From positions 1-64,000 of the forward strand of contig NZ_CAKRDI010000016.1 in the NCBI RefSeq assembly GCF_934309415.1: a stretch of 64,000 bases of DNA. Reading direction: 5' to 3'. The DNA is from an uncultured Mediterraneibacter sp. Its GTDB lineage: Bacteria > Bacillota > Clostridia > Lachnospirales > Lachnospiraceae. Within the stretch, counting starts at the first letter, position 1; each line of letters opens with the position of its first letter. The notes beneath the pieces were generated by a model. The model was given only the letters and a program-made list of their open reading frames with translations, was not told the origin of the DNA and searched no databases. Position numbers and translations under genes: made by a program. Below are positions 25,084 to 27,037 of this stretch, piece by piece.

Positions 25084-25995
25084 TTACAGTCTCATTTCCT
25101 TCATTCTTCTATAAAGTGTAGATTTTGACATGTCAGTTATTTTCAATACTTCCGCTAATGAAATCTCATTTTTTTGAAAACGTCCTATCTGCTCTTTTAA
25201 AAACTGTTCATCAAATTTCTTTCGCTTTCTTCCTTTATAAACACCTTTCTTCTTTGCCTGTTGGATTCCCTTTTGCTGCTGTTCTCTTCTCTGATATTCA
25301 TCCATCTCATATAAATGTTCAAAAATCGGCATCCACGCCTGATAATCTTCCACGCACAAATGCAATTTTTCTTTTTTAGAAGTCAATTCAATTCCATAAT
25401 GCATCATTCGATTAAGCCTTTTCACACATTCCTTTGAATTCTTTCCCAATACTGCGATATTTTCTATAACAAACTCATCGCCGTACTGGCCCTCTTCCAG
25501 CTTCTGTCGTAACATTGTGGAATTTTGAATCTCCTGTATTTTCATTTCATCTCTTGCACGTTCTACAATTAAATTATCTATCGCTGCACGTAAATCTGTA
25601 CGAATAAGCCATTCCAGTCTGTCATAATAGTCCAATCCCACACTATCCAGCAGCTCCCATAAATCTTCTCTTGAAGATCCCGGGGTTCTCTCTGTAATAA
25701 AAACAGGAACATAATTAACACGATAATAATGCTCTAATCTCAAACTCATATCAATCCCTGGGATTCCCTGAAATACTTTCGAAGAAAGCGTGTCAATAAT
25801 CGGCCAGAATGGGCTTATAATATATTGAAATTCTTCATTCTCAAATTGTTCATATGTGATTTTACCCACTTGTATTTTTTCATTTTCTTTTGTTACCGCT
25901 TTAATGATTCCACTGTTACGGTAAATAGGGGTATCTAAAATTGGCTTTGTATATTCATTTCTTGCAACCCAATCCGTTCGCACGTATGTCTTCAT
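25084..25995 (-). CDS. Partner of HipA-like kinase with resolvase-derived C-terminus
   Basis: 303 residues; the whole protein is not one I recognise. The C-terminal part (about 172-303) reads like the second half of a serine resolvase: IENIAVLGKNSKECVKRLNRMMHYGIEL, a long helix, GVYKGRKRKKFDEQ, and an HTH_7 domain ISLAEVLKITDMSKSTLYRRM (about 277-297). The resolvase start with its serine nucleophile is absent and the usual DRLGR arginines are replaced. The first 147 residues (LEHYYRVNYVPVFITERTPGSSRE, LDYYDRLEWLIRT) vaguely recall the small N-terminal HipA subdomain. GAGGTGAG precedes the ATG, 11 bases after the kinase stop, so the two are one operon. Probably a DNA-binding, non-catalytic partner. 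Confidence 0.6.
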   Translation of the reverse strand: MKTYVRTDWVARNEYTKPILDTPIYRNSGIIKAVTKENEKIQVGKITYEQFENEEFQYIISPFWPIIDTLSSKVFQGIPGIDMSLRLEHYYRVNYVPVFITERTPGSSREDLWELLDSVGLDYYDRLEWLIRTDLRAAIDNLIVERARDEMKIQEIQNSTMLRQKLEEGQYGDEFVIENIAVLGKNSKECVKRLNRMMHYGIELTSKKEKLHLCVEDYQAWMPIFEHLYEMDEYQRREQQQKGIQQAKKKGVYKGRKRKKFDEQFLKEQIGRFQKNEISLAEVLKITDMSKSTLYRRMKEMRL

Positions 25996-26006
25996 TCTAT
26001 CTCACC

Positions 26007-26864
26007 TCATATAAAATTTCCGGTTAACTTCTGATATGGTTCCTTTATCATCACTTCATATCTCAAATGCAACATTTTTTTATAAAATGTCTTTCGAATT
26101 AATGATATATTTTCTACTCCGTCTATTATTTTCTCCATCTCTTTCAGGTTAATCTTTGGTTTCATGCGAATCAGCGCCTCATTACATTCTTCATATTGCA
26201 GGCTGTCAATCAATTCATAATAAGAACTCTTTTTTCCTTGCAGTAAAATCTGTGATGTAGGAAATGTATACACTCTTTTTAACATTTCTTCTTTCGAGTC
26301 CAATATTTCCTTCAATTTTTCATCTGTATTTAAGCGTGGAAACAAAGAAGAACCATTATCATATATCGGAGCCATTCGATATCGATTATCTTTTTTCAAA
26401 AATCCCCAGTTTGAACCATGTCTGTCAAAATTTCCAATCCAGGCATCAATTAAATACATATCCCAGAAATGATACACCGTTTCTTCCACATCCGTTAATT
26501 TCATATTCTCTTCCAGCATTCGCATAATATCATTATAAGTATATTGATATCGTGATCGACTCTGCTCCAATGTACTGTCCCCAACATCGTTGAATGGCAC
26601 AAAGATTTCATTTTCACCAATGAAATCTTTCATTACAACCACAGGGCTTCCATCACAGGTTCCCAAAAACGTCTGTTGAACTTCCATTCCAACCATCTGA
26701 AATAAATGAGAACCAATATATTCTGATACATGGCTATACGTGAGTCCTTGTGGTGAATTTTTCGCATATTTTACAATGTAGGGAACTCCTTGAATTAAAA
26801 TTCCTTTTTTTCGTTCTGCCCCTGTATAATAACGCCTACTTGACTGATATCTTGAATAATCCAT
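26007..26864 (-). CDS. HipA/CtkA-like protein kinase domain protein
   Basis: 285 residues covering only the kinase part of HipA-type proteins. YTGAERKKGILIQGVPYIVKYA (about 13-34) matches the nucleotide-loop and lysine region, YSHVSEYIGSHLF (about 43-55) the helix after it. The catalytic loop is IGNFDRHGSNWGFL with Asp147 and Asn152. The metal site is MAPIYDNGSS with Asp169. The N-terminal HipA subdomain is missing, as in CtkA and HipT. Such kinases phosphorylate protein serines/threonines and often act as toxins. A clean sigma-A promoter lies upstream and the unusual partner gene follows 11 bases downstream. Confidence 0.78.
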   Translation of the reverse strand: MDYSRYQSSRRYYTGAERKKGILIQGVPYIVKYAKNSPQGLTYSHVSEYIGSHLFQMVGMEVQQTFLGTCDGSPVVVMKDFIGENEIFVPFNDVGDSTLEQSRSRYQYTYNDIMRMLEENMKLTDVEETVYHFWDMYLIDAWIGNFDRHGSNWGFLKKDNRYRMAPIYDNGSSLFPRLNTDEKLKEILDSKEEMLKRVYTFPTSQILLQGKKSSYYELIDSLQYEECNEALIRMKPKINLKEMEKIIDGVENISLIRKTFYKKMLHLRYEVMIKEPYQKLTGNFI

Positions 26865-26897
26865 TTTATCACGCCCTTATGTCCATTTATTTTTTAT

Positions 26898-26926
26898 ATC
26901 GTATCATCTCTTTATTTTTGTGTCAA
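26898..26926 (-). promoter_or_regulatory. Sigma-A promoter of the kinase/partner operon
   Basis: On the minus strand TTGACA (26921-26926), 17-base spacer, TACGAT (26898-26903), 34 bases before the kinase ATG. Confidence 0.6.
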
Positions 26927-27037
26927 TAGAGTATATTTTATTTGTGATACTTAATCGATATGATGGTTACTGTTTTCCTTTTCACTTCTTTCTATCTTAT
27001 TCCTGCCCTTTCTCATAACTTTAAATAAGTAAATGTC

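Follow-up and report, generated by a model that had tools for sequence, protein, structure and literature searches.

Several minimal relatives of the HipA kinase toxins have been described, and one of them, hipMP, consists of a short HipM kinase and a downstream γδ-resolvase-like protein, HipP, which was proposed as the putative antitoxin and postulated, as a prediction only, to bind DNA and to autoregulate (Gerdes, Baerentsen and Brodersen 2021, PMC8262856). According to the part of that paper available to us, the HipG, HipI, HipJ and HipM kinases comprise 279-321 amino acids and lack N-subdomain-1, and HipS-like domains are assigned to HipN, HipS and HipL, not to HipP. For the HipBST system of E. 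coli, the accessible text reports that HipS inhibits HipT via Gly-rich-loop contacts, with Glu63 and Trp65 located at the active site, and that Trp65 is not universal among HipS proteins (PMC10627512). Here we analysed a kinase gene and its partner gene on contig NZ_CAKRDI010000016.1 of an uncultured Mediterraneibacter sp. (assembly GCF_934309415.1); the window is the whole stretch of 64,000 nucleotides studied. Both genes lie on the minus strand, and the 11 nucleotides between them, as well as the two reading frames themselves, agree with a first-pass annotation made from the sequence. We estimate a probability of about three in four that the pair is a hipMP-type kinase toxin-antitoxin-like module in which HipP blocks the kinase with a HipS-like half and represses the operon with a resolvase half. 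The pair fits hipMP on each point tested, among them the short kinase (285 amino acids) without N-subdomain-1 and the downstream γδ-resolvase-like gene, the families being equated by description only. The annotation's claim of a new arrangement falls, as this gene layout has been known since 2021; the HipS-like domain of HipP and a conserved operator, which are not mentioned in the text of PMC8262856 available to us, appear to be new details. A literature search brought up no later paper using the term hipMP and no follow-up recognizable by its title or the start of its abstract.

The kinase is indeed, as annotated, a stand-alone protein of the HipA/CtkA type with intact catalytic loop and metal site. 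HipA_C (E 3.1e-16) is its only Pfam domain and N-subdomain-1 is missing. By sequence, the closest solved structure is CtkA (PDB 3akj, E 7.8e-41), compared here as a structural relative only, the HipT-type kinases come next (E about 9e-6), and the PADLOC model PDC-M03A matches with an E-value of 1.6e-33. The family is large, with 2188 database proteins matching at E <= 0.001. An alignment of 20 kinases shows no variation at K32, N145 and R148, and D147, N152 and D169 are kept except in loci L027 and/or L028. Residue 15 of the N-terminal loop is Gly, and position 14, Thr in the window kinase, is Ser or Thr in 16 of the 20; in our reading this is the S/T position meant in the hipMP description. 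In the two exceptional loci, both from Roseburia (L027:4143-4991 and L028:4098-4943), the pair lies directly behind a gene reading as valS, and a degenerate kinase (GNPDRRENS and ANGERDGSS, metal Asp changed) is accompanied by an intact partner. Since Hip kinases act on aminoacyl-tRNA synthetases, a Hip-type pseudokinase adjoining the gene for such an enzyme is suggestive.

The N-terminal domain of the partner has the HipS fold according to structural comparison with VIA-align, and its identity as HipS-like rests mainly on structure. The annotation had stated that this region weakly recalls the N-terminal subdomain of HipA, which holds by structure and finds much less support in sequence; the fold of an unrelated enzyme, which would have counted against the annotation, is not what is seen, as the domain folds as HipS. 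The profile Couple_hipA matches 44 of 100 relatives of the domain at E <= 1 (best 3.2e-5) and not the window domain. PDC-M03B models hit 35 of 100 HipS-like domains, the isolated window domain included (E 0.0011), and a single one of these models hits 13 of 38 HipPs (best E 4.6e-5); the models have 232-255 positions and align over 44-86 of them, within the HipS-like part only. The domain also occurs by itself. In L054 the gene for a kinase of 28% identity overlaps a gene for a protein of 136 amino acids that corresponds to the HipS-like domain alone, and a length-limited search yielded 162 short relatives whose homology with the HipP domain is evident (hhalign E 5.4e-35). A second candidate for a stand-alone HipS-like gene (L040:2338-2974), situated 241 nucleotides behind a kinase of 47% identity and devoid of a resolvase half, was rejected, as a fragment resembling the start of HipP lies directly behind that kinase in another frame; this is probably a decayed HipP copy. 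A resolvase remnant was sought in L040 and L054 and none was convincing, since the best match, which lies on the opposite strand, reached an E-value of 0.001 across 24 residues and the others 0.15 and 0.21. In L029:1292-1990 HipP is broken after the HipS-like half and there is no kinase.

The second half of the partner was annotated as the back half of a serine resolvase ending in HTH_7. Both parts are found, PF00239 at residues 162-252 (E 5.2e-6), beginning at profile position 55, and HTH_7 as a sub-threshold match (Table 1), but the description as a back half does not hold, because the structural match runs from γδ residue 1 and an internal stretch is absent. Residues 151-303 share the fold, the long helix, the GxYKGRK arm and the helix-turn-helix (HTH) with the Tn3/γδ and Sin resolvases, whereas the Ser10 segment is missing and the catalytic Arg and Asp residues are not conserved. 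The mapped positions of the catalytic set were Ser10, D67, R68, R71 and R125. In the family alignment of 110 rows, no conserved Ser was present in residues 149-175, R68 is Arg in a single row, R71 in 31 and R125 in seven, and D67 is Asp in five, which bears out the annotated loss of the nucleophile and the usual arginines. The partner thus lacks the set Ser10 plus D67/R68/R71/R125 that characterizes an active serine recombinase. That HipP could nevertheless be an active site-specific recombinase, with the kinase as a passenger or a regulator of recombination, is suggested by the retained fold, arm and HTH; it is largely excluded by these substitutions and by the late start of the PF00239 match, and we consider it highly improbable. 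Among the papers listed by a literature search for serine recombinases that act as repressors after loss of activity, none was to the point by title. In a gut archaeon (Thermoplasmata/Methanomethylophilaceae, L033:3906-5500) the pair has a much shortened resolvase body with the HTH kept, and a different palindrome, TTCTCAAAA...TTTTGAGAA, is present upstream; L034:7-459, from the same archaeal group, holds the end of a pair.

The two genes are co-conserved. Two conserved peptide patterns, scanned once against genome contigs from 84,980 species, detected 34 partner loci, 31 of them with a kinase match upstream. Co-occurrence in other genomes, proposed with the annotation as a check, is borne out by 30 of the 34, in which the adjoining kinase is full or cut by the contig end only (L015); the kinase is reduced to a remnant in L026 and absent from L025 and L029, and L034 stops at the contig edge. 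Most of these loci stem from Lachnospiraceae or other Clostridia, one from Olsenella and two from archaea (L033, L034). Among 299 genomes of the family to which the genome of L003 (Mediterraneibacter) belongs, 29 places encode the kinase with E 2.4e-20 or better. The partner's domain is next door to all six kinases of at least 47% identity (decayed in G185/L040) and to two of the 23 more distant ones (G196, G119); at the other 21 places (e.g. L043, L045, L050; 30-38% identity) no partner match was found next door. Chance proximity of two unconnected genes, one for a HipA-like kinase and one for a resolvase relative, for which one could point to the separate reading frames and to the single-gene loci L025 and L029, is refuted by this co-conservation and deserves practically no credence. 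Over 34 pairs including that of the window, mean identity is 0.56 for the kinase, 0.63 for the HipS-like half and 0.32 for the resolvase half, and in each of the 561 comparisons it is the HipS-like half, not the resolvase half, that shows the higher conservation. The correlations with kinase identity (0.83 for the HipS-like and 0.73 for the resolvase half) are inflated by shared ancestry.

An inverted repeat that had escaped the first-pass annotation is common to the upstream regions, and its right arm, CTATTGACAC, includes the -35 box. Upstream regions were collected for kinases of at least 45% identity and, after removal of three duplicates, amounted to 31, 28 of which could be scored. In 20 of the 28 promoters the left arm matches the right arm in at least six of seven bases, 14 at a spacing of 17 and six at a spacing of 16, and such a match occurs once at the other 33 spacings (5 to 39). 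In the alignment made at spacing 17, which comprises 20 promoters, conservation is mostly below 1 bit apart from the arms, the -10 box, the ribosome-site region and a centre rich in A. The exact two-arm pattern was found nine times in eight of 13 genomes, and never in the reversed control. Of the nine sites, seven immediately precede the module, or an orphan HipP in the case of G007; the remaining two lie elsewhere in G001 and G515. A looser scan located the repeat in front of the HipP gene of L025, where there is no kinase, and of the L041 pair (kinase about 34% identical), not upstream in L026-L030, thus neither in L027 nor in L028, nor in L032, L033, L039, L040 or L054; it gave one site in 206,448 strand-bases of control loci and a single operator site in the 64-kb window. 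That the repeat is retained alongside HipP after loss of the kinase indicates HipP as its reader, and autorepression of the module would agree with its position over the -35 box. The locus without a kinase (L025:4832-5858) is from Tyzzerella. The promoter itself had been called clean; its sequence is conserved across relatives, and this is what supports it, since the number of promoter-like matches in the region, 13, is not in excess of shuffles (mean 10.3, sd 3.4). The operator arms may resemble γδ half-sites, a likeness for which a literature search found nothing. An origin of the operator from a transposon res site was not supported: 20 resolvase-like stretches from the same family, 14 of which gave a gene with upstream region, contained one TGTC-N-GACA site versus 0.33 expected, and 142 of 500 shuffles reach one. 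One TGTC...GACA site of 28 bp lies in L117, 300 bases upstream of a resolvase gene; with 14 genes examined, it does not exceed chance.

Taken as a hipMP-type module, the locus could work as follows. HipM would be a HipA-family Ser/Thr kinase trimmed to its kinase core, and the HipS-like domain of HipP would fill the place of the missing N-subdomain-1 and keep the kinase inactive. The C-terminal half of HipP is probably an exapted serine resolvase which, with its Ser10 segment gone and most catalytic residues lost, would still supply the dimer interface, the arm and the HTH for binding the inverted repeat over the -35 box. Seated there, HipP would repress its own operon, and its loss or dilution would free the kinase and at the same time lift the repression of the operon. 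The kinase is presumed to be toxic; by analogy with GltX and TrpS, its target may be an aminoacyl-tRNA synthetase. The best reading is that HipP unites the roles of HipS and HipB in one chain, and the annotated role of the partner as repressor or antitoxin is likewise the likeliest. With a confidence slightly above even, we propose in addition that a serine resolvase of the transposon type became linked to a HipS antitoxin and was stripped of its enzymatic function, one half now blocking the kinase and the other repressing the operon from the -35 inverted repeat, that kinase binding could tune DNA binding, and that HipP and its operator outlive the kinase in some lineages.

A number of observations speak against the hipMP-type interpretation. 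The VIA-align comparison re-examined the first 1000 Foldseek chains only, and in plain Foldseek neither HipS nor HipA is among the 50 matches listed for the HipS-like domain. In the window this domain has no Pfam match, and the full-length partner (P0002) has no PDC-M03B match at E <= 10. Against 20 HipA_N segments, hhalign gave a non-significant E-value of 0.15 for the domain; its short relatives reached 0.02 and unrelated controls, such as the kinase against HipA_N, 0.06. Judging from the alignment, HipP seems to have retained neither Glu63 nor Trp65 of E. coli HipS, so that the contact with the kinase must differ in detail from that between HipS and HipT. As to the operator, the counts come from related loci with the right arm used as anchor. 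Eight of the 28 promoters fall short of six matching arm bases out of seven: the window and five others have five at spacing 17, and L030 and L039 have one and two. L032, L033 and L040 are without the right arm. Finally, HipP may do more than hold a toxin in check, because it is intact next to the degenerate kinases of L027 and L028 and persists without a kinase in L025.

These same loci, with an orphan HipP and its operator or with an intact HipP beside a degenerate kinase, would also suit a HipP that is mainly a transcription factor, with the kinase as its ligand or sensor and thus a signalling enzyme instead of a growth-inhibiting toxin. We regard this as unlikely, since the remaining 18 of the 20 aligned kinases retain the catalytic Asp, the Asn and the metal Asp, and conservation is highest in the HipS-like domain, which is similar to an established inhibitor of a toxic kinase. 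Greater, though still minor, weight is due to the possibility that the pair is a phage-defence module of the kind of the PADLOC candidate PDC-M03, in which HipP holds the kinase inactive until infection releases it, rather than a housekeeping or persistence toxin-antitoxin system. The matches of PDC-M03A to the kinase and of PDC-M03B to a part of the HipPs and HipS-like domains argue in its favour, as does the available text of a 2025 study stating that phage-defence functions were predicted for HIRAN- and HipA-domain gene clusters (PMC11706625). Against it, PDC-M03 is itself only a candidate, PDC-M03B covers the HipS-like part only, and the full-length partner is unmatched. Defence against phages is compatible with a hipMP-type module and not exclusive of it.

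The module shares with PDC-M03 a related kinase and, by the matches of the isolated domain, a related HipS-like N-terminal domain. We infer that PDC-M03 is hipIN, a kinase plus a HipS-HIRAN protein according to the accessible text of PMC8262856, whereas the second half of the window's partner is a dead resolvase; our literature search found no paper naming PDC-M03. A core kinase with a HipS-fold partner is common to hipJS and hipBST, to the window pair and to L054. In hipBST, however, DNA binding resides in a separate HipB, while in the window pair the antitoxin-like and DNA-binding parts form one protein and the kinase gene comes first.

Table 1. Features of the hipMP-like locus (positions in the window)
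Feature	Position	Strand	Evidence
HipM/CtkA-like short HipA_C kinase, 285 aa, first gene of the pair	26007..26864	-	HipA_C, CtkA (3akj) and PDC-M03A matches; catalytic residues present
Kinase catalytic loop GNFDRHGSNW, residues 144-153	26406..26435	-	Translation and kinase alignment
HipP-like partner, 303 aa: HipS-like domain, inactive serine resolvase, HTH_7-like domain	25084..25995	-	
HipS-like domain, partner residues 26-148	25552..25920	-	
Remnant of the serine-resolvase catalytic domain plus long helix (partner residues 151-256); no Ser10 segment found	25228..25545	-	
HTH_7-like DNA-binding domain, partner residues 255-296	25108..25233	-	Pfam E 0.018 (below cut-off); 1gdt and 5cy1 aligned through residue 302-303
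Putative operator, imperfect 31-bp inverted repeat GTATCAC-N17-TTGACAC	26920..26950	-	Conserved in relatives
Promoter TTGACA-17-TACGAT, -35 box inside right arm of operator	26898..26926	-	Conserved in relatives

The pair is flanked by two gene blocks which, from their translations, read as carbohydrate use. The araC-type, transporter and alpha-galactosidase-like genes of one flank are found together again in L091 and L094, and the transporter and the large regulator-like gene of the other in L096. The genomes of these three loci have no strong match to the kinase/partner pair, and the recurrence of the flanking genes without it suggests that the pair is an accessory insertion at the border between the blocks. 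Its G+C content (0.33-0.35) is slightly below that of the flanks (0.35-0.43). No partner relative was found in IMG/VR, among PLSDB plasmids or among INPHARED phages.

The results suggest that HipS-fold kinase blockers are a reusable module that is combined with different second halves (HIRAN, a dead resolvase or none). With them, hipMP gains a checkable mechanism, as it can be stated which part of HipP would act on the kinase, which on the DNA, and on which 31 bases. If the proposed descent is true, HipP would clearly exemplify the conversion of a mobile-element recombinase into a regulator and, where it outlives the kinase together with its operator, into a free-standing one.
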